From positions 1 through 23,088 of the IMG/VR virus record IMGVR_UViG_3300031565_000396: a stretch of DNA of 23,088 bases; one strand, written 5' to 3'. The stretch is from a virus. A program made the translations under genes and the position numbers. The notes beneath the pieces were generated by a model. It ran no database searches. It saw only the letters and a list, made by a program, of their open reading frames with translations, and was not told where the DNA came from. Below are positions 2,972 to 20,729 of the stretch, piece by piece; the stretch's first letter is position 1; each line of letters begins with the position of its first letter.

Positions 2972-3625
2972 TTAACTAAGCGTACTAAAGAATATTTGTA
3001 CGTCTACACTCCCTTGAGTTGCTGCGTTTAGATTAGCTCCTGTAGATTTACTTGTTATCTGAATATCCGTTGTACTACCGAAATTCTCTACTGCACCGTA
3101 AACGTACTGACCAAAAATCTGATCACCAACACTTTGAAACACATCAAAATCATATGCAAATCTGTTTAAATTTCCAACAATACCCACACCTAAAGTATAC
3201 GAAGTAATGCCTCCTCCTACGAAATTACTTGTGGGTTTTATATTAGTATTATGCAGTACTCCTTTTATAGGGAGAGTATATAAAGAAATACTTTTAGAAG
3301 TAGCTGCTGCTGAAAAATCTATGTAAGTTTTAGTTATTTTTACCCAAGAGATACCACCACCTAAATCTACTTCTCCAACTACTACGTGAGGGAAAACACT
3401 AACGTCAACTAATTTTATAACTGCGTTTTGCTCTATATAAATATCACCTACTGGAGCATCCAAATGACCTACGTCTCCAGAACCGTCCAGTATCATCTGA
3501 CCAGTTATAGAGTCATAAAAAACTCCGTAATCAACCCAACCTAAATTTTTAAGTACGTTGTTCAAGGCAGTGTGTTCTAATACTTCTTCTAATGTGAATA
3601 TTTTATACGTAGAATCTTTAGCCAT
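2972..3625 (-). CDS. Tail-tip structural protein, unknown family
   Basis: I do not recognise the family. The 217-residue product is rich in beta-forming residues (Val, Ile, Thr, Gly) with no signal or membrane segment. A short helical N-terminus (TLEEVLEHTALNNVLKNLGW) is followed by a probable beta domain. Its gene overlaps the end of the hub/receptor-binding gene by eight bases, has GGGAG upstream, and is followed 11 bases later by the glycine-rich fibre gene. The context points to a tail-tip or fibre component, perhaps trimeric. Confidence 0.6.
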   Translation of the reverse strand: MAKDSTYKIFTLEEVLEHTALNNVLKNLGWVDYGVFYDSITGQMILDGSGDVGHLDAPVGDIYIEQNAVIKLVDVSVFPHVVVGEVDLGGGISWVKITKTYIDFSAAATSKSISLYTLPIKGVLHNTNIKPTSNFVGGGITSYTLGVGIVGNLNRFAYDFDVFQSVGDQIFGQYVYGAVENFGSTTDIQITSKSTGANLNAATQGSVDVQIFFSTLS

Positions 3626-6041
3626 TTGTTTGCTCCCTAAATAGTTTTAAAGTATTTATTTCGTCTATAGTTATAGCTCTTCCAAAAACTATAATTGTTT
3701 CTATTTTTCCGTTAAAAGAATTTTGTATAACAGTAGATACAGATTGTGCACCTAAAAATAATCCTGCGTCATTACTTTCTAACCCACCGCTGCCTGCAGT
3801 TATTTCTTCTAGTTCATTTACATATAATTTTATAGTACTTCCATCCCAAATTATTAGTATCCCATACCTACCTGTTTCAGAAATTGTAGCTTGTTTCCTA
3901 TGGTACGTTGCATCTTTTACAAAAGCAGAAAGTACCCCAACACTAATAGATATACCAATAGTATCCACAGAAGAAACGTACTGTTGTAACAATGCTTGTG
4001 TAGTATTGTAATCAGTAATATCTAATATCATATATACTGAAAAAGCATTAGCTACTTGTATTTCTGATAAAGAAGTTCTATCTATGTATTTTGAGGCACC
4101 GCTATAATCAAAAGTCTTACTTGTTTTATCGTATTTCGGTTGATTTACTGAAGTTGACATAGCTATATCGTAAGTATTTCCAGACTGATCGTACCAAGTT
4201 TTAAGGTAGCCTGTATCACTAGATATATTATTTACGTATCCCCGTATAAAGTCTCTATAATTTAAAAACTTCGTAAGCATATAAGTATCTATTAACTTTC
4301 TACGAAAAATAAAATCTCTCTCCTCATCGGATCCTGCATCTACTGCGGTATCTGCTGAATTATTCCTGCGTATTTCACAACAATAATCTGTGTAGTTTGA
4401 ATTTAATAACCTATTACTTATACCTAATACCATATCTGAAATATCGTTAGCTATAGCGGGTATATCTTCGTACTCAACTTTTTGTACTGTAATAGAAGTT
4501 AGTTCATTTGTTTTACTATGCTGAATACCTATAACCTGAAAATACTGATTTATAAATACCTTTATTGCACCCAAAGCCCTACCTAGAATATCAATATCTA
4601 ATTTACTTTCATCCAGAATAAACCCACCTCTTTGATCTAGTATTTGTTTCTTACCTATTTGAATTAAATCTAACATCTGTATATCAGGGTAAAAAGGTAA
4701 TTCAAGTTTAAAAGTCAATTTAGGACTATCCGTTAATTCACCTATATAATTTAATAAATTTTGACGCTGGGTTGCGTTATCAATGAAATCTACTTTAAAT
4801 GTTTTTGATGTCTTAAATCTTGTATTTAAACTTTGATACTTTTCAGTGGAATCTTCCCAAAACCAATTTTCAATTACACTTACACTTCCCTGATTAAAAT
4901 CATATACCTGTATTTTTTTTTCTGGACTCGTAGGGAAATAGTGCTTAACTACTGAAGTAGGTAGAGCGGGTTGAAAATAAAATTTACCACTTCTAACGTA
5001 AAATACAGAATGACCTTTTGCTAAATCACTTAAAAGATCTATAACTTTTACATCTTCGGATATTAAAGATAAATTTAAATTTGTAGTATTGTATCCTGAC
5101 TTAATTAGGTCAGTATTTATTTCAAAAAAAGCTGCAAACTGACCTCGGTTCATAACTTCATAAACTAACTCATTAACATTTGTCTTTGTAAGTGTACCTA
5201 AATCTGCAACGGTAACTCCGCTCAAAATACTAACTAAACTTTTTGCTGTAAAAGTTTCTTCATATGTGTCACCAGTTTTGCCTGTACGGTCGTCTATAAA
5301 TCCTTGAAAAATTTCAGTCTCAACTTGTACTGGTGTATCTGGATCGGTGTAGTAATCTACGTACCCGGATATTATTCTTATCCAAGTATCGTGTCTTATG
5401 TAATTATTAAAGATAGAATTTAAATTTGATTCATCAGACATTTCTCCGTGTTTATTTCTAAATTTTAATCTAGCACTTCCAACATCTATTAATCCGAATT
5501 CCCAAAGATTATCAGGTATTCTCTGAGTTATAGATGGTACAGTACCTTTCAATATATATTCTGAAATATCGTACCAGTTTTGTTCGTACTCATACACCTC
5601 TTTTACAGATACGTTGTCAATTGACCCTGTGAAAGAACTTACTCCTTCAAAATACAAAGTAGAATTACCTAAAGCCCTTAAAACTATTTCGTGATAACCA
5701 CTTGAATTAACTATCTGACCTGCAGAAATATCCCCAGCTTTAATTTTCAAAGATCCAGATGCGTAATTCTTTACTTGGATTATTATTTTATATTTAAACC
5801 CCGCTTTCAAACCTGCGTCTTGTGATAACGAACTTCCTGTTGATGAGGATGCGTTTGCACTGCCTCCTGAAATACCCCAACCCGCTCCTTTTGTCCAGTC
5901 AGTATCTGTAGCGAAGTCACCGTTAGTTATAAGTTCTGTTACAAAAGTTTCAATCATAGAAAGTCGTCTTTTTATTTCTACTTTTGTAAAAGTTTTTTTA
6001 GTATTATATCTATTCCAAATTTCTTGGTTAGTTAAGGTCAT
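3618..6041 (-). CDS. Tail hub / receptor-binding protein with two carbohydrate-binding-like domains
   Basis: An 807-residue tail protein. Residues about 36-150 form a carbohydrate-binding (CBM/galactose-binding-like) beta sandwich, seen in the ELITNGDFATDTDWTKGAGW start and SIDNVSVKEV end. It appears inserted near the N-terminus, with tail-type sequence resuming at EYEQNWYDISEYILKGTVPS. The middle, to about 540, looks like a siphovirus tail-hub protein and contains FQGFIDDRTGKTGDTYEETF. Residues about 555-805 form a concanavalin-like LamG domain with the signature LKTWYDQSGNTYDI followed by NQPKY. It would sit at the tail tip and bind host surface glycans. The gene overlaps the preceding one by ATGA. 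Domain calls rest on recognised patterns; the hub role is inferred from gene order. Confidence 0.75.
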   Translation of the reverse strand: MTLTNQEIWNRYNTKKTFTKVEIKRRLSMIETFVTELITNGDFATDTDWTKGAGWGISGGSANASSSTGSSLSQDAGLKAGFKYKIIIQVKNYASGSLKIKAGDISAGQIVNSSGYHEIVLRALGNSTLYFEGVSSFTGSIDNVSVKEVYEYEQNWYDISEYILKGTVPSITQRIPDNLWEFGLIDVGSARLKFRNKHGEMSDESNLNSIFNNYIRHDTWIRIISGYVDYYTDPDTPVQVETEIFQGFIDDRTGKTGDTYEETFTAKSLVSILSGVTVADLGTLTKTNVNELVYEVMNRGQFAAFFEINTDLIKSGYNTTNLNLSLISEDVKVIDLLSDLAKGHSVFYVRSGKFYFQPALPTSVVKHYFPTSPEKKIQVYDFNQGSVSVIENWFWEDSTEKYQSLNTRFKTSKTFKVDFIDNATQRQNLLNYIGELTDSPKLTFKLELPFYPDIQMLDLIQIGKKQILDQRGGFILDESKLDIDILGRALGAIKVFINQYFQVIGIQHSKTNELTSITVQKVEYEDIPAIANDISDMVLGISNRLLNSNYTDYCCEIRRNNSADTAVDAGSDEERDFIFRRKLIDTYMLTKFLNYRDFIRGYVNNISSDTGYLKTWYDQSGNTYDIAMSTSVNQPKYDKTSKTFDYSGASKYIDRTSLSEIQVANAFSVYMILDITDYNTTQALLQQYVSSVDTIGISISVGVLSAFVKDATYHRKQATISETGRYGILIIWDGSTIKLYVNELEEITAGSGGLESNDAGLFLGAQSVSTVIQNSFNGKIETIIVFGRAITIDEINTLKLFREQTNG

Positions 6042-6847
6042 CCACCCTCCACTAATCTTATACTATCATTCAAACCAGTCCAGTAAAAGTTATTTGTTAA
6101 TTGTGGACTTCCCGCACCGTCTTTTTGTACTAAATAAATATCTTGAAAACGATACGGTTCAAATTTAAATTCAAATTGTGCTTCGTTTCCACCGTTAATC
6201 CAAAGATAAAACTCTTTATTTCTATTTTTTAGAGTAGTATATAGGTCTATATCTGCTTGTAGTACGTGAGAACTGAATTTTAAATTAAATTTCCACGTAA
6301 CTCCTTTCACAATAACTTCTTTTTTAGCGTTATCTTTTTCGTGAACTTTTTGACTGGGTTCATCTATAGGATTTGGATCAATAGGGTACGTGAATTTACC
6401 TATTTTTTCAAACATATAGACTAAATAAATATACTTCTCTTGATCTGCAACTATAGTATTTGAACCTGAAATTCTAATTTTTGAGGCTGTAGTATTGGAG
6501 TTCATTAGTATATATATATGTTTATTATCAATTGATTTTGTTATAACTGCGTTAACTCCATCAGTAATATTATGCCAAGTGCCGTCATAATACTCAAAAG
6601 TTATATTTAAGATGTTTGTATTATACGTTATTATTGAGTCAAACGACCTAGAAACCGATAGATCACGCTCGATCGACACTGAGTCTCCATCTGTGTTTTC
6701 ACCGCTTGATATCCAACGGTTTTCCTTGTCACCAGTAAACGGTAACCAAGATTTTTCAGTATTACTAGACACACTTACACTGCCTCCAAAACTTTTTAAA
6801 GCCCAGTTAAAATCAAAACAAGTTATTCCTGTAAAAGTTGTACTCAT
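6038..6847 (-). CDS. Distal tail (Dit-like) protein
   Basis: A 269-residue protein directly after the tape measure and before the large tip protein, the usual place of the distal tail protein that caps the tube and joins the tip. The C-terminal half (VTWKFNLKFSSHVLQADIDLY then FKFEPYRFQDIY) reads like the beta-sandwich portion of Dit-like proteins. The N-terminal half is beta-rich and less diagnostic. It overlaps both neighbours by ATGA, with GGAGG before its start, so the three genes are translationally coupled. The family call leans on position. Confidence 0.6.
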   Translation of the reverse strand: MSTTFTGITCFDFNWALKSFGGSVSVSSNTEKSWLPFTGDKENRWISSGENTDGDSVSIERDLSVSRSFDSIITYNTNILNITFEYYDGTWHNITDGVNAVITKSIDNKHIYILMNSNTTASKIRISGSNTIVADQEKYIYLVYMFEKIGKFTYPIDPNPIDEPSQKVHEKDNAKKEVIVKGVTWKFNLKFSSHVLQADIDLYTTLKNRNKEFYLWINGGNEAQFEFKFEPYRFQDIYLVQKDGAGSPQLTNNFYWTGLNDSIRLVEGG

Positions 6848-14207: not shown

Positions 14208-15194
14208 TTATGCGTTAACTATTTTTGCAGTCTTCCACCAAGCACCGTAACCTAATCCGTGACGATCGTAAAGACCCCAATTGAGCCTTTTTTTCTTCTT
14301 CCAATCGTCATCGGTTGGAGCAGGGTTGTCCAACTTCAGCATTTCTTCCATAGAAATTAGTACTGGTCTCATACCAGCACCGTCGTCGTTGGTATCAAAA
14401 ATATACCAATCATTAGCGTCAGTAAACGGTCTTGTAACATACTTTAATCCTTTAAATATGTTATCTATATTTCCAACCGCAGTGGTGACCATAGTTTGTG
14501 TTTGTATCTGCAAGAAGATACCAGCAAGTTGAGATGGAACTACGCACATCAAACTACCCATACTTAAGTTTTTATTTAGTTTCTTTTTCTTTTCATTAGC
14601 AGTGTCTCCGCTAGGTACAAAATAGAAACCCTCAAGTGCACTGTACGCAGTTAACAAGTCGTCGTATACTTTTGCAAAAGTAACTCCTGTACCTGCTAAC
14701 AGGTTGTCTTGAGATCCAGCAGCATCACTCCAATCGTGAGTATTGCTGTATAGCGTTTGACCATCAAAAGTTGTACCGTAAGTAGATGCGGCACCTGCTT
14801 CGATCCAAGCCAATGCTTCTTCAAACGGAAACTCTTTAGCCTCGTTCACCATAGATTTAATCTGCAACTCATATGGATTCAAAGCCATTAAGTTTTCAGA
14901 TGCACCTGCTCTTTGAAAATCAGCTAAAGGTATTGATACACCATTCCCATACTCATAATTCTTCACAGAAAACTGAAAAGTATCTGCTGGGTTCTGGTAC
15001 TCAATACCGTCAGTGATACGTTTCATTCCTTTCAAGAATTGAGATATCGGAAACGAAGTCTCTTTAGTATAACCACTAGGAAATGAAAAAGCTAGCATTT
15101 TTAATTCAGTTTCTAACTGTTGCCACTCCTTCATAAACTTAGTGGAGACTTTTATATTGAATTGGTCAATTAATTGATTTACTGATTTACCCAT
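14208..15194 (-). CDS. Major capsid protein, Mu gpT family
   Basis: A 328-residue head subunit. The pattern matches the Mu-like major head subunit gpT family: N-terminal helix, ITDGIEYQNP region, FSVKNYEYGNGVSIPLADF, and the diagnostic FDGQTLYSNTHDW segment (about 142-154, FDGQxLFSxxH in the family). The C-terminus has KRLNWGLYDRHGLGYGAWW. The length agrees with the family (about 300-330). The gene follows the decoration-like gene by 12 bases and has AGGAG upstream. A perfect hairpin lies beyond its stop. Confidence 0.92.
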   Translation of the reverse strand: MGKSVNQLIDQFNIKVSTKFMKEWQQLETELKMLAFSFPSGYTKETSFPISQFLKGMKRITDGIEYQNPADTFQFSVKNYEYGNGVSIPLADFQRAGASENLMALNPYELQIKSMVNEAKEFPFEEALAWIEAGAASTYGTTFDGQTLYSNTHDWSDAAGSQDNLLAGTGVTFAKVYDDLLTAYSALEGFYFVPSGDTANEKKKKLNKNLSMGSLMCVVPSQLAGIFLQIQTQTMVTTAVGNIDNIFKGLKYVTRPFTDANDWYIFDTNDDGAGMRPVLISMEEMLKLDNPAPTDDDWKKKKRLNWGLYDRHGLGYGAWWKTAKIVNA

Positions 15195-15206: not shown

Positions 15207-15647
15207 CTATATTTTCACAAAGATATCTGTACCAGCAACCCATTCAAATATCGTTCCAACCAGAATATCATTTGTAGTAGCTGCTGCGAGGTCGACCGCC
15301 CCGTTATCCGCAACGTAAACTTGTGTTAATCCATTTACGCCTGTTATTCTGGATAAAGAAGTTGCAGCGATCATTTGAAGTATCGCACCACTTCCTTTAG
15401 GTATAATACGTATTGTATTATCTCCATCAGCACCACCTGCTGCTTGCGTGAAGTCATCCCACGCAATACCTCCGAATCCTAAATCAGATGCAGAGTCAGT
15501 ACCGACAGTATAGTAACCATCAGATGCGATGTTGATGTTCATACCTTGATAAATAGTCAATGCTCCAGCTGTCAACGGAACTTCTAACCAAGCAACTGGT
15601 GCACTGCCTTTTATTCTAAACTTTCTGTTAGCAGTTAATGCAGCCAT
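15207..15647 (-). CDS. Probable capsid decoration protein
   Basis: A 146-residue Ala/Gly/Thr-rich protein with small beta-type segments (NRKFRIKGSAPVAWLEVPL, ILVGTIFEWVAGTDIFVKI). It stands between the protease/scaffold and the major capsid gene, where DUF2190-like or head decoration proteins are usual, and it has the low complexity and lack of Cys of such capsid-stabilising proteins. The start shares its first base with the last base of the protease gene, with AGGAGG upstream. The family call is tentative. Confidence 0.6.
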   Translation of the reverse strand: MAALTANRKFRIKGSAPVAWLEVPLTAGALTIYQGMNINIASDGYYTVGTDSASDLGFGGIAWDDFTQAAGGADGDNTIRIIPKGSGAILQMIAATSLSRITGVNGLTQVYVADNGAVDLAAATTNDILVGTIFEWVAGTDIFVKI

Positions 15648-16150
15648 TATTCACCCTCCTTTTTATTGTAAATCTTGCGAGCAGCGATTATGTCTTCTTT
15701 TTTCAAAGAAGAATCTGACTTCAGAACAGATTGTTCATTTTCTGTCAGTACATTATCGTCGCTTGAAGATTCACCAACTGCTTTGGTATGAAGAATTGCA
15801 GGTCTATCTTTAAAATAGTTTTCCAATTCTTCTGCAGTTTTGTGAGTAGCAAAGTCTTGTTTTTTAGTGCCATCACTTACTTTTCCGAGTTTAACTAAAC
15901 GACTCCAAACCACTTCTTTTTCTGCTACAGACGTTTTTTCTTCAGAAGTAGCTATGCGTTTAGTCAAATCTTCAACCTGGACTTTGAGATTCACATTCTC
16001 ATCTTTTGTCACGTTGACGCCTTCGATTTTTTCTTTTAAATTCTTTAGTTCCTCGGAGAGTTTTTTAGCGTTTTCAGCCTCAGTTTGTAAAGCTTTGACG
16101 TCAATATTATACTCTTCGGAGAGTTTAAGAATCATTGCATCTTTGTCCAT
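15647..16150 (-). CDS. Internal in-frame scaffold protein (Mu Z-like)
   Basis: Met362 of the protease gene (ATG at 16150) is preceded by AAAAAAGGAGAACAAA, a strong Shine-Dalgarno with good spacing inside coding sequence. Initiation there would yield a 167-residue protein, MDKDAMILKLSEEYNIDVKA onward, almost entirely charged coiled coil. In Mu, scaffold gpZ is made from an internal in-frame start of the protease gene I, and lambda C/Nu3 works likewise. It would core the prohead and be degraded by the larger product. Confidence 0.72.
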   Translation of the reverse strand: MDKDAMILKLSEEYNIDVKALQTEAENAKKLSEELKNLKEKIEGVNVTKDENVNLKVQVEDLTKRIATSEEKTSVAEKEVVWSRLVKLGKVSDGTKKQDFATHKTAEELENYFKDRPAILHTKAVGESSSDDNVLTENEQSVLKSDSSLKKEDIIAARKIYNKKEGE

Positions 16151-17233
16151 TTTGTTCTCCTTTTTTATTTTTGAATTAGGTGGTTCGGATAACTTAACCG
16201 CACCTCCCCATTTTTGAAAAGGTCGGTTCGTCAAAGCTCCTCCAAGGAGGACGTTCTTAACCTTTTCACCTTTCTCAGTACTGTAACTATCTGGTGTGAA
16301 CTCTGGAGAATAGTATTTAAACTCCTTTTCAGCAATTGCTTTTTTTGCTTTCGGAGTCCATTCTACTTTACCCCATAGTTGCGTGTCGTTCTCTTTAGTG
16401 TATAGAGATTTAAACCAGCCCGCTGCAGCTTTTGTACCATCGTCGTTGTCGTGCGTGTAGTCAATAGAAATATCTATGCCACGGACTTTGTTTTTAAAGT
16501 TTTTTATGTACTGCTGTAAATCTTCTTTTTCTAATTTAAAAGTTGGATGCAGAGCGTGATCGTAAGTTCCTACAGAAAGTATAGGTACATCAGATAGCTT
16601 TGAATTCACATTCCACTCATCAAATTTTATAGCGTAACTATGTTTCATAGGTTCTGAAAACTTTAAAGCTTTTTTATTAGCTTTTGTTAGGATGTCATCA
16701 GCTATTCCAAATGTTATAGCTTGTTGCGGAGTCATCCACACATCGCTTTTAAACATCACCTCTTTTAATTCTTCTTTAGAACGTCCTGTGTTTTTTGCAA
16801 GTACTTCTAGCATCCTTTCGTTAACTTTTCTTATCTGATCCATTTGATTTTCCATATCTCGGAAACCACCCCACGCCTCGGCAGATACTTCGTGAATCAT
16901 TATCCTAGAATGCTCTCCTACATATCTACGATCTCCTGCTGAAAATAAAAGAGCACCCGCACTATCCGCATCACCCATAACTACCGTATTTATCTGACTC
17001 TGCACAATATTGAAACCATCAAGTATTGAATTAAGTGCTACAACACTACCTCCGTATGAGTTTATAATTACGTTTATAGGTTCTTGAGAAATCATATCTA
17101 GTCGTATCAATTCCTGCACTATACTTTTAGCCATATGTATTGTGAAATTTTCAAATAAAAATATATTTCTTCCTATGGATTTATCTTCTTCAGATATTAA
17201 AAACATAAATTCTTCGTCTATATTGTTTTTCAT
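15647..17233 (-). CDS. Prohead maturation protein: ClpP-like serine protease fused to Mu gpI-like protease and scaffold
   Basis: A 528-residue polypeptide in three parts. Residues about 1-190 are a ClpP/S14-type peptidase: VIINSYGGSV (55-64), catalytic Ser91 in GDADSAGALL, His114 in IMIHE, and Asp179 in FGIADD. Residues about 200-345 match the Mu gpI prohead protease family: IDYTHDNDDGTKAAAGW (257-273), WGKVEWTPKAKKAI, KYYSPEF and LGGALTNRPF. The rest (362-528) is a charged coiled coil typical of scaffolds. An internal start at Met362 could produce the scaffold alone. It overlaps the portal stop by ATGA. It would mature the prohead by cutting scaffold and itself. Two protease-type domains in one chain are unusual. 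Confidence 0.88.
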   Translation of the reverse strand: MKNNIDEEFMFLISEEDKSIGRNIFLFENFTIHMAKSIVQELIRLDMISQEPINVIINSYGGSVVALNSILDGFNIVQSQINTVVMGDADSAGALLFSAGDRRYVGEHSRIMIHEVSAEAWGGFRDMENQMDQIRKVNERMLEVLAKNTGRSKEELKEVMFKSDVWMTPQQAITFGIADDILTKANKKALKFSEPMKHSYAIKFDEWNVNSKLSDVPILSVGTYDHALHPTFKLEKEDLQQYIKNFKNKVRGIDISIDYTHDNDDGTKAAAGWFKSLYTKENDTQLWGKVEWTPKAKKAIAEKEFKYYSPEFTPDSYSTEKGEKVKNVLLGGALTNRPFQKWGGAVKLSEPPNSKIKKENKMDKDAMILKLSEEYNIDVKALQTEAENAKKLSEELKNLKEKIEGVNVTKDENVNLKVQVEDLTKRIATSEEKTSVAEKEVVWSRLVKLGKVSDGTKKQDFATHKTAEELENYFKDRPAILHTKAVGESSSDDNVLTENEQSVLKSDSSLKKEDIIAARKIYNKKEGE

Positions 17234-19509
17234 AAAGTTTTCTCCTTTTGAATTGATGGTGAAGGTATGTAATTATCGATTTTTACTTTAGCCTCATCGG
17301 AATATCTAGGCATTAAAAAGCTATTGCATCCGAAGTGTAGTGGAGTACGTACCCACGAATATGCAGCACCTCCAGGTGTGTAGTAATGCCCTTTACTTAG
17401 AACCTTGCATATATTTGTTTTTGGATTTAAATTAATAAATTCATACGCTACTATCACTGAACTTACTTCAGGTACTTTTCCAAAATCTAATTGTCCCACG
17501 TTCCATCCATCATTTACTACATTATCAGCTGCTGCACGTACTGTGTTTCCCGTTATGTACTTGTCAGACTTTGAACTAGCGGATGCGATCGCTTGAGCTG
17601 TAGATAACCCATCATCTATTTCATTTTGAACAGTAAATACTACTCTAGCTCTTAATTCAACTGTTTGTGATTCAATTATTGCATCTGTTTTGTTGATCAC
17701 ATACACCTGAAGTTCTGGAGTAAGTTTTTTAGGATCAAAATCTGGCATCTCTGCAAACTTCTTCGCACCCATATGTGGCTTTGCATCTTGCTTGGATGCT
17801 TGCCAACCGTTGTTAACTAAATACGCTAACTTTCTTTGCAAACCTATTATGTACTTATTTATTCCAGAAACCTGAACGTTTTTAAGTCCTCGCGTAGCTA
17901 TTGTTCCTTTACTTAGTACATTTGCTACATCAGCTAATAACTTATCCTTCATCAGCACTAAATTAGCTTGCATATAAGAACGTAGGTTAGGTATTTCTTT
18001 TTTAATAAACTCCTGCCTGTTTTTCCAATACAATCTCTTCCTTTCTAAAACGGCAGCTTGTGTAGGTTCTGCAAACTTTATATTCCTACGAAATTGTTTA
18101 TCTATTTCTTCACCACAACCACACTCAATATGGTTACGGCATCCCTGTCGGTATTCCCACGCAGCGTTGGTCATACTATTTTCCATATCTTCTTCCATAC
18201 CTAGATCTTCGTCTTCTTGGAAAGGTATTTGTTTAGCAGTAGAGTTAGTGAATTCTTTATCTTGTTTATCTTTTTTCTCTGAACGTTCTTTTTTCTCTTC
18301 CAAGGTTAGTTCTGGTAAATCTGCTTTTGTACGTAAGAAGTCTTCATCTCTTTGTGTAAACTCAACCGCTCCTGCAGCTTTAAGTGCAATAGCATTATCT
18401 ATAAGTTTTTGTACTGCCTCTCTATTTATATTCATACCAAATACCCTAGGGTACGATTCTTGCTTTCCAAAGTTATGAATAATAATAGTTTCTATTAACC
18501 TATTGAGAGGTTCCTGAATAAGTTCTACTATGTACTTCAAAGAATTAAGTAAAAGTTGTGATTGTGTATCACCTAATGAATAAGATCCACTTTTTCCTTG
18601 CATACCTAATTCTAAAAACTGAGCCAATACAGATTTAGACATTTGTACATTGTGTCTTTGTATTTTTATGTTTACTGAGGCAGCATTATATTTTCCTTCC
18701 ACAATATCAAATTCATATATGTTTGGGAGCATAAAATAAGGACTCGCCATAGTACCCAAAGCCATAAGTGCTTCTTCTAGCGATTTGAAATCGGGATGTG
18801 CTTTGGATAATGATTTGGGGTACTTTACTATAGGAGTACCTAATGCCATTTTTCGTACCCCTACCGTATCTAGTAGTTCAGCCTCTTCTCTATTTATCCA
18901 ATCTTTGTACGCACCACGTATCAAAGAAGTACCCCGCATATCGTTACCTTCTTGATCTAGAATAAAGAAAGTTAAAAACTCAAACGGTATATTAGTAGTA
19001 TCGCCTTTTGATTTCTGTTGTTCCACGTACTGCTCATCTTGATTAATAGATACAACAGAAGATTGAGCTCGGAATTGTAAATCAGGAACCATATATATAT
19101 TGTTACGCCACTCCCACTCACGCCACACTACTTCAAAAACTGAAAAACCGTACTGCAAAAAAGAAAGTATGGAGTTAAGCGTCTTTGTCCACGTAGGTTT
19201 CAAACCATCAATATTAAAAAAATAATCTTTTATAAATTCTTGATGAGTTGAGTGCTCAGGTTTATCTGAAGAAGATATTATCTCCCAGTCAGCAGAGCTT
19301 ATAGGTGTTTTTATAGTACGAAGTAACATAGTTATTTGAGAATCACCAAGTGCCATTTTCTTATAGGTTCTTGTACCTTCTATACCTATTAACTTTGATT
19401 CTATTTCAGAAGTAATATCAAAACCTATTTCAGGTACTCCACTATCACCTACGGATACTGCGTGTGCTGCTTGTTTTTTTACTGTTTGTTCTTTTTTTAT
19501 CATAACCAT
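17230..19509 (-). CDS. Portal protein (Mu gp29/DUF935 type) fused to Mu gpF-like minor head domain
   Basis: A 759-residue protein. Residues about 30-440 are a DUF935-type portal: YKKMALGDSQITMLLRTIKTPI, STHQEFIKDYFF, LSFLQYGFSVFEVVW (116-129), the GTPIVKYP segment, GSYSLGDTQSQLLLN (308-322), and NFGKQESYPRVFG. After a polar linker (about 405-450) comes a short cysteine cluster (Cys457, Cys463, Cys465). The rest (480-740) resembles the Mu gpF/SPP1 gp7-like minor head protein, ending with a variant of its signature, TNICKVLSKGHYY then TPLHFGCNS. In Mu these are separate genes (29 and 30). It forms the 12-fold DNA entry vertex. It lies two bases downstream of the terminase gene and overlaps the protease gene by ATGA. 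Confidence 0.87.
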   Translation of the reverse strand: MVMIKKEQTVKKQAAHAVSVGDSGVPEIGFDITSEIESKLIGIEGTRTYKKMALGDSQITMLLRTIKTPISSADWEIISSSDKPEHSTHQEFIKDYFFNIDGLKPTWTKTLNSILSFLQYGFSVFEVVWREWEWRNNIYMVPDLQFRAQSSVVSINQDEQYVEQQKSKGDTTNIPFEFLTFFILDQEGNDMRGTSLIRGAYKDWINREEAELLDTVGVRKMALGTPIVKYPKSLSKAHPDFKSLEEALMALGTMASPYFMLPNIYEFDIVEGKYNAASVNIKIQRHNVQMSKSVLAQFLELGMQGKSGSYSLGDTQSQLLLNSLKYIVELIQEPLNRLIETIIIHNFGKQESYPRVFGMNINREAVQKLIDNAIALKAAGAVEFTQRDEDFLRTKADLPELTLEEKKERSEKKDKQDKEFTNSTAKQIPFQEDEDLGMEEDMENSMTNAAWEYRQGCRNHIECGCGEEIDKQFRRNIKFAEPTQAAVLERKRLYWKNRQEFIKKEIPNLRSYMQANLVLMKDKLLADVANVLSKGTIATRGLKNVQVSGINKYIIGLQRKLAYLVNNGWQASKQDAKPHMGAKKFAEMPDFDPKKLTPELQVYVINKTDAIIESQTVELRARVVFTVQNEIDDGLSTAQAIASASSKSDKYITGNTVRAAADNVVNDGWNVGQLDFGKVPEVSSVIVAYEFINLNPKTNICKVLSKGHYYTPGGAAYSWVRTPLHFGCNSFLMPRYSDEAKVKIDNYIPSPSIQKEKTL

Positions 19510-19511
19510 AT

Positions 19512-20729
19512 TTATGTCCTTATACTATCAAATGCTCCAGTAGCTCCATCAAAAATACCTGCTTTTAGATGAGTACGTATCGCATAACGCATAGCATCCA
19601 TAGCGTGATCATCTATTTTAATTGGTTCATCCATAGGTAAATTGTCTTTGTCTTTTTTCCATCTGTACCCTGTAATTTCAGAAACAATATTATCAGAGGA
19701 TTTAAGTATGTGAAGTCTATAACTCTTTACCGTATCTATCCCTTTATTTACATCTTTATCAGATGCCATAGCATTAAATCCTGCATCACTTATCTCTTGA
19801 ATACGATCAGGCTCTGCTGAATCACAATATATTTCTCTTGTGCGTTCGTTTGCAGGTATTAGTTCTTTTAGTTTTTCTATTATATCAGGAGTAGTTAAAT
19901 GCCTTTCGTAAATCAGTTCTTGAATATAAACTAAATCATCGTGCACTGTAACTTTCACTAAAGAACTCGGTGCATTGAAACCAAAGTCCATACCATAAAA
20001 AACTTCTCCAGCAATAGGTATCTCATCAACAAATTCATAATTAGTATATACAACTGTCTTAGCAGTACCCCACTCACCTTTAGCAAATACTGCGTGTTGT
20101 TCTGGATCTGAATTCAAAAGTCCTTCCAAGGTATCTATATATTCTTGTGTTAAATGCGGGTTATCTTTGTAGGTAGAATGTATCACCTCTGATTCTGGTA
20201 GTAGAATAGCTCGCTTTGCAACCCAACTTGTGGACTCATCTGGATTTAAAGATAAAAATATTTGGTTCGGTCTATCCATTCCTACATTCCTTGCTGACTT
20301 TCTTGTTTTTAATAATATAAAATCAACCCAGCTAAATTCATTAGCCTCTTCCATCCATACAAAATTAAACTCGGTTGATTTCATCTTACTCGGATCGTCA
20401 ATGGAGAAAAACTGAATACGACTTCTATTGAAAGGGTTTTCAATGTAGTTTAAAGACCTGTTGTGATCGCAAAATGAGTACAAACCATAATCCATTAGTA
20501 AGTCTATAACTAAACGCATTGCAGTCATACGTAATGCAGGCATTGTCTTACGACAGATACCTATTTCAATTTTTACTTTTGGTACACTAAAAAGAGCTAT
20601 CATAAGTTGAGCTATAGAGTGCGATTTACTTGATCGTGCTCCTCCTACATTAATGATTACTTCTTTCTTACTAAGGTAGTTTCTTCTTAATACGTTTGTA
20701 CCGTTTGCTTGTACAGTTGGTTGATTCAT
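19512..20729 (-). CDS. Terminase large subunit
   Basis: A 405-residue packaging motor of PBSX-like type (Terminase_3). ATPase: a Walker A variant GGARSSKSH (29-37), Walker B VWMEEAN (124-130) with catalytic Glu128, and the coupling motif LSLNP (159-163). Nuclease: RNase H-like acidic residues Asp248 in GMDFGFN, Asp303 in YCDSAEP, and Asp378 in DDHAMDAMRY. The length is usual for the family. AGGTG lies before the ATG. The start overlaps the stop of the 54-residue ORF by ATGA. It pumps DNA through the portal and cuts concatemers. The small subunit does not adjoin it. Confidence 0.93.
   Translation of the reverse strand: MNQPTVQANGTNVLRRNYLSKKEVIINVGGARSSKSHSIAQLMIALFSVPKVKIEIGICRKTMPALRMTAMRLVIDLLMDYGLYSFCDHNRSLNYIENPFNRSRIQFFSIDDPSKMKSTEFNFVWMEEANEFSWVDFILLKTRKSARNVGMDRPNQIFLSLNPDESTSWVAKRAILLPESEVIHSTYKDNPHLTQEYIDTLEGLLNSDPEQHAVFAKGEWGTAKTVVYTNYEFVDEIPIAGEVFYGMDFGFNAPSSLVKVTVHDDLVYIQELIYERHLTTPDIIEKLKELIPANERTREIYCDSAEPDRIQEISDAGFNAMASDKDVNKGIDTVKSYRLHILKSSDNIVSEITGYRWKKDKDNLPMDEPIKIDDHAMDAMRYAIRTHLKAGIFDGATGAFDSIRT

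Follow-up and report, generated by a model that had tools for sequence, protein, structure and literature searches.

The window analysed here is a stretch of 23,088 nucleotides (positions 1 to 23,088 of the IMG/VR virus record IMGVR_UViG_3300031565_000396). Its head gene cluster comprises a terminase (19512-20729), a portal/MuF-like protein (17230-19509), a polyprotein of 528 amino acids (15647-17233), a virion protein of 146 amino acids and a major capsid protein similar to Mu gpT (14208-15194; Pfam PF10124, E = 4e-7). The polyprotein, the portal/MuF-like protein, the capsid protein and the features of the window described below as parts of them lie on the minus strand. Its ORF begins with ATG, is preceded by a good ribosome-binding site (aaaaggagaaaactttATG) and has exactly the limits given in an earlier note on this DNA. 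The ORF, its matches to the Pfam families CLP_protease and Mu-like_Pro and an AF2 model define a ClpP/gpI-type protease/scaffold polyprotein.

The ClpP (S14-type) domain covers amino acids 22-188 (16670-17170), as supported by Pfam, by the closest solved structures and by conservation. Pfam CLP_protease (PF00574) matched amino acids 22-184 with 128.6 bits against a cut-off of 20.2 (E = 3.3e-37), and ClpP proteins were the closest solved structures to the polyprotein (E = 2e-21). The earlier note had described an intact ClpP triad, and its residues were indeed found in place: Ser91 (SAGALL; codon 16961-16963), His114 (MIHE; codon 16892-16894) and Asp179 (IADD; codon 16697-16699). Among the 18 distinct members of the family described below, 17 of the 167 columns of this domain are invariant, including Ser91 and His114 (each 18/18), while Asp179 is conserved in 17 of 18. 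The exception, L149 (5206-6744), carries Gln in place of the catalytic Asp (GLVQEI) and retains Ser, His and both gpI residues.

The second domain, of the Mu gpI type, spans amino acids 211-345 (16199-16603). Pfam Mu-like_Pro (PF10123) matched amino acids 230-433 with 87.7 bits against a cut-off of 25.2 (E = 1e-24), and a profile of the domain matched Mu gpI itself (E = 7e-7). Thus, the region 200-345 does match the gpI family, both families score far above the Pfam cut-offs, and PHROGs profiles agree, matching the polyprotein separately as a ClpP-type and as a Mu-type head maturation protease. The gpI motifs previously pointed out were recovered as well (IDYTH at 257-261, YYSPEF at 307 and LTNRP at 334). 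An AF2 model of this domain alone reached a pLDDT of 79. Searched with Foldseek against BFVD, it gave 42 matches at E <= 1e-3. Where these carried a name, many were prohead or capsid maturation proteases, and one was a Mu-like I protein. The same model matched no solved structure in the PDB, where only noise was returned. His261 (IDYTH; codon 16451-16453) and Ser309 (KYYSPEF; codon 16307-16309), assigned as catalytic by their position in the family motifs, are conserved in 18 of 18 distinct members, and 26 of 135 columns of the domain are invariant. With so few invariant columns in both the ClpP and the gpI domain, the catalytic residues rank among the most strongly constrained positions. One fused relative, L157, has an in-frame TAG within its gpI domain (6458-6460) with the frame open on either side, which could reflect readthrough, recoding or a sequence error.

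In the AF2 model of the full chain, two ordered domains (about 22-188 and 213-340) are followed by helices at 364-474, in line with the coiled coil that had been noted after the gpI motifs. The linkers 191-197 and 350-361 have low pLDDT, and the arrangement of the domains is unsettled (pTM 0.39). Two apparent indications of an already known fusion were rejected. The long match of PHROG 2976 (24-458) was driven by ClpP, since the gpI piece alone did not match this PHROG. Foldseek with the full chain returned mostly ClpP matches, and its few long alignments, all of very high rmsd, were not accepted as fusions.

The C-terminal part, amino acids 362-528 (15650-16150), is a coiled-coil scaffold by its AF2 helices and is more variable, with 3 of 167 columns invariant among the 18 distinct members. 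An internal ribosome-binding site, AAGGAG, lies six bases ahead of the ATG of Met362 (16148-16162), a putative start for a separate scaffold protein. Counting the 18 fused proteins and two ClpP-scaffold proteins (L164 and L166, see below), a Shine-Dalgarno sequence precedes the scaffold Met in 16 of 20 proteins vs. 23 of 237 other in-frame ATGs (Fisher P = 1e-11). The scaffold is probably also made alone from the internal start. A subgroup of four relatives (L158, L161, L162 and L167) has no Shine-Dalgarno sequence before the scaffold Met; perhaps their host relies on other start signals, or the nested start has disappeared.

The usual view is that a tailed-phage head matures with a single type of protease, as the earlier note had also stated, and the collections searched are consistent with this. 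Three queries against 50,697 phage records and one against 72,556 plasmid records gave no match to most of the chain, so that no annotated phage with it was found; in those records that were examined, ClpP and gpI domains were on separate proteins. When viral contigs were searched with the whole chain as a single sequence, one ClpP relative was the sole result. A degenerate pattern spanning the ClpP-His and gpI-His motifs yielded the first three fused relatives, and alignment queries the remainder. Altogether, 17 further distinct fused members were obtained, 16 in IMG/VR virus contigs and one in a short contig from a bin classed as an Omnitrophota MAG, giving 18 distinct proteins including the window; L160, a truncated copy of L147, was left out. 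The fused members are 30-40% identical to the window protein. Both Pfam families were matched in 16 of the 16 members scanned together and also in L214. The ClpP, gpI and scaffold parts give correlated distances (r = 0.82-0.88), which is what a single fusion of long standing would produce, and the retention of both active sites across 18 members argues for a conserved architecture rather than an accident. We found no paper describing a ClpP-gpI fusion in the open-access literature searched, although absence there is no proof. By sequence, the chain belongs to both protease families, and the combination is a novel form of phage head-maturation protease.

A short motif is present on both sides of the gpI domain. 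Between ClpP and gpI it reads KFSE (amino acids 191-194; 16652-16663); K191 and S193 are invariant, position 192 is Leu or Phe, position 194 is Glu or Asp, and no other column of the linker 189-210 is invariant. Between gpI and the scaffold it reads KLSE (amino acids 347-350; 16184-16195), with all four residues invariant and no other invariant column in 346-361. K[LF]S[E/D] thereby flanks the gpI domain in 18 of 18 members within otherwise variable linkers, and its conservation and the low pLDDT of these linkers mark both copies as putative cleavage sites. Two more KLSE copies lie in the scaffold of the window (amino acids 370 and 391). Across 16 relatives, the motif occurs 4.65 times per 1000 amino acids in the protease and 2.79 times in the portal protein vs. 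0.16 times in other ORFs of the same loci, a 17-29-fold difference, and in the window itself 7 of 7 copies fall in the polyprotein and the portal/MuF-like protein. We also weighed the major capsid protein as a substrate and rejected it; KFSE or KFAE occurs occasionally near residue 29 but lacks conservation, and in the window the capsid protein contains no K[LF][SA][ED].

The portal protein (759 amino acids; 17230-19509; Pfam Portal_Mu, E = 5e-37) with its C-terminal MuF-like region, assigned as such from a weak PF04233 match in the relative L154 and from motif resemblance, is the other putative substrate. Portal/MuF-like proteins of the family carry two copies of K[LF][SA][ED] about 92-106 residues apart, the first in a linker of varying length. 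In the window, the motif in aligned relatives points to KFAE at amino acids 478-481 (18067-18078), in the variable linker that follows the portal domain, and to a second KFAE at amino acids 584-587 (17749-17760) as putative cleavage sites. Variants of the first site are QFAE in L147 and KMSE in L214, and variants of the second KFAD in L155 and KLAD in L147. The portal linker of the window also contains a Cys/His-rich stretch (CRNHIECGCGEE) that is absent from the aligned relatives. In L154, the portal/MuF-like protein (3609-6791; 1061 amino acids) contains an intein with a LAGLIDADG domain in its MuF-like part (Pfam PF14890 and PF14528), and the portal of L152 terminates in intein-like sequence at the same place.

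Relatives with only one of the two protease domains bear on the function of the motif. L164 and L166 encode ClpP joined to a related scaffold without a gpI domain, and their capsid protein has no match to gpT. ClpP, with Ser, His and Asp retained, is the sole protease domain found in that protein, and no copy of the motif was present in about 6,400 amino acids of these loci. In a tree of the ClpP domain rooted by midpoint, both are placed beside the window and inside the fused clade (91/83 for the clade, 99/78 for the window plus these two), a position which, under this rooting, suggests that the gpI domain and the motif were lost together. Conversely, L231, a gpI-type relative without ClpP, retains FSE and LSE, the last three letters of the motif, at its two gpI borders. 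Two loci lacking gpI and one relative lacking ClpP thus underlie the association of motif and gpI domain.

Known prohead proteases have comparable specificities: T4 gp21 cleaves after L/I-X-E and the phiKZ protease after S/A-X-E (PMC9026906), while SPN3US gp245 cleaves after A-X-E (PMC10052503). The motif conforms to the L-X-E rule known from T4-type prohead proteases. Taking together its placement, its density, its absence in L164 and L166, the FSE and LSE of L231 and the L-X-E-type specificities, we read K-[LF]-[SA]-E as the probable, putative cut site of the gpI domain. We consider it fairly likely that the window encodes a head-maturation polyprotein composed of an active ClpP-type protease, an active gpI-type protease with the prohead-protease fold and a scaffold, in which gpI cuts at K-[LF]-[SA]-E. 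The scaffold tail would bring the long form into the procapsid, where the gpI domain would cut after K-[LF]-[SA]-E and release itself from ClpP and the scaffold. It would then cut the scaffold further (at 370 and 391 in the window) and the portal/MuF-like protein twice, yielding the portal, a spacer of roughly 100 residues and the MuF-like part. ClpP itself is probably active as a second protease and, once released, would most likely clear the scaffold and its fragments. Scaffold clearance appears to be its most natural task because the gpT-like capsid protein, in which the Pfam match to gpT begins at residue 12, has no obvious removable N-terminal domain. More tentatively, and with slightly less than even confidence, we propose that two unrelated active proteases are made as one self-processing polyprotein and that the released ClpP acts as a second-stage chamber protease and digests the scaffold set free in the procapsid.

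The same motif could instead serve as a docking or packaging signal on the protease and the portal, bound by gpI or by the shell and never cut, and a short invariant motif that sits in low-confidence linkers and recurs in several head proteins would suit such a role. Its location on both borders of the protease domain, its repetition inside the scaffold of the window and its agreement with known protease specificity argue for cleavage, and we regard a docking signal as rather improbable. That ClpP rather than gpI cuts K[LF][SA]E, leaving the gpI domain as a secondary or regulatory protease, seems even less probable, indeed very much so. The first site does follow directly after the ClpP domain, but the motif is missing where ClpP occurs without gpI, its FSE and LSE borders persist where gpI occurs without ClpP, and the L-X-E-like pattern is that of T4-type prohead proteases (PMC9026906).

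The ClpP domain could also be a structural ring only, which oligomerises and thereby concentrates or orders gpI in the procapsid while gpI does all the cutting. The earlier note had left open whether the chain has two cutting activities or uses ClpP for oligomerisation. AF2 predicts two independent domains on a loose linker, and L149 lacks Asp179, both of which would be compatible with a ring. However, all 18 distinct members keep Ser91 and His114 at an identity to the window of only 30-40%, cleavage at the conserved K[LF]S[E/D] in the first linker would split ClpP from gpI, and L164 and L166 keep ClpP with its Ser, His and Asp next to a scaffold in the absence of gpI. Hence, we disfavour an oligomerisation-only ClpP as unlikely and favour two activities, both sites being conserved across the 18 members. 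Further, three features that the earlier note does not mention, the nested start, the K[LF]SE borders and the motif in the portal protein, suggest that self-cleavage separates the domains, as opposed to one fused enzyme. The window is a single metagenomic contig, so that a chance join or an assembly artefact of two adjacent genes had to be considered; this is already refuted by 17 more distinct fused proteins on other contigs and by the correlated domain distances, and its probability is negligible.

The proposed polyprotein shares features with several known systems. As in Mu gpI/gpZ, a gpI protease domain is combined with a scaffold from an internal in-frame start, and portal, MuF and gpT-type capsid genes are located nearby; a nested scaffold start is similarly arranged in phage KS10 (PMC2628397). 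Mu gpI, in contrast, lacks both a ClpP domain and K[LF][SA]E, and the Mu MuF protein gp30 is separate from the portal, unlike the portal-MuF-like fusion found here. The ClpP-type (S14) phage head maturation proteases (e.g., PHROG 94, 133, 1684 and 2976) likewise have a ClpP domain in a head gene cluster. In L164 and L166, ClpP is fused to a scaffold that has a nested start, but both lack a second protease domain and K[LF][SA]E. With T4 gp21, phiKZ gp175 and SPN3US gp245, the polyprotein as read here would share a short specificity ending in Glu, several head substrates and self-processing; no ClpP partner is described for these proteases in the respective papers (PMC9026906, PMC10052503), and the motif reported here differs by an almost invariant Lys before L/F.

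A conserved lineage with two unrelated protease folds in one chain, together with probable cut sites, makes the division of labour between them directly testable. The motif predicts processing of the portal-MuF-like fusion and, for a gpI-family protease, offers a means of locating cut sites by sequence alone. In ordinary gpI phages the motif was not found, except for one KLAE in Mushu. By eye, ordinary gpI phages (L213, L235, L237 and L239, i.e., Mu, CAM-P21, B23 and a Helicobacter prophage) seem to have repeated short motifs of their own near protease borders or in the scaffold, with ALSA in Mu, ALN in B23 and ANS/ANK in Helicobacter and Campylobacter phages. If these are real, they may reveal cut sites across the gpI family.
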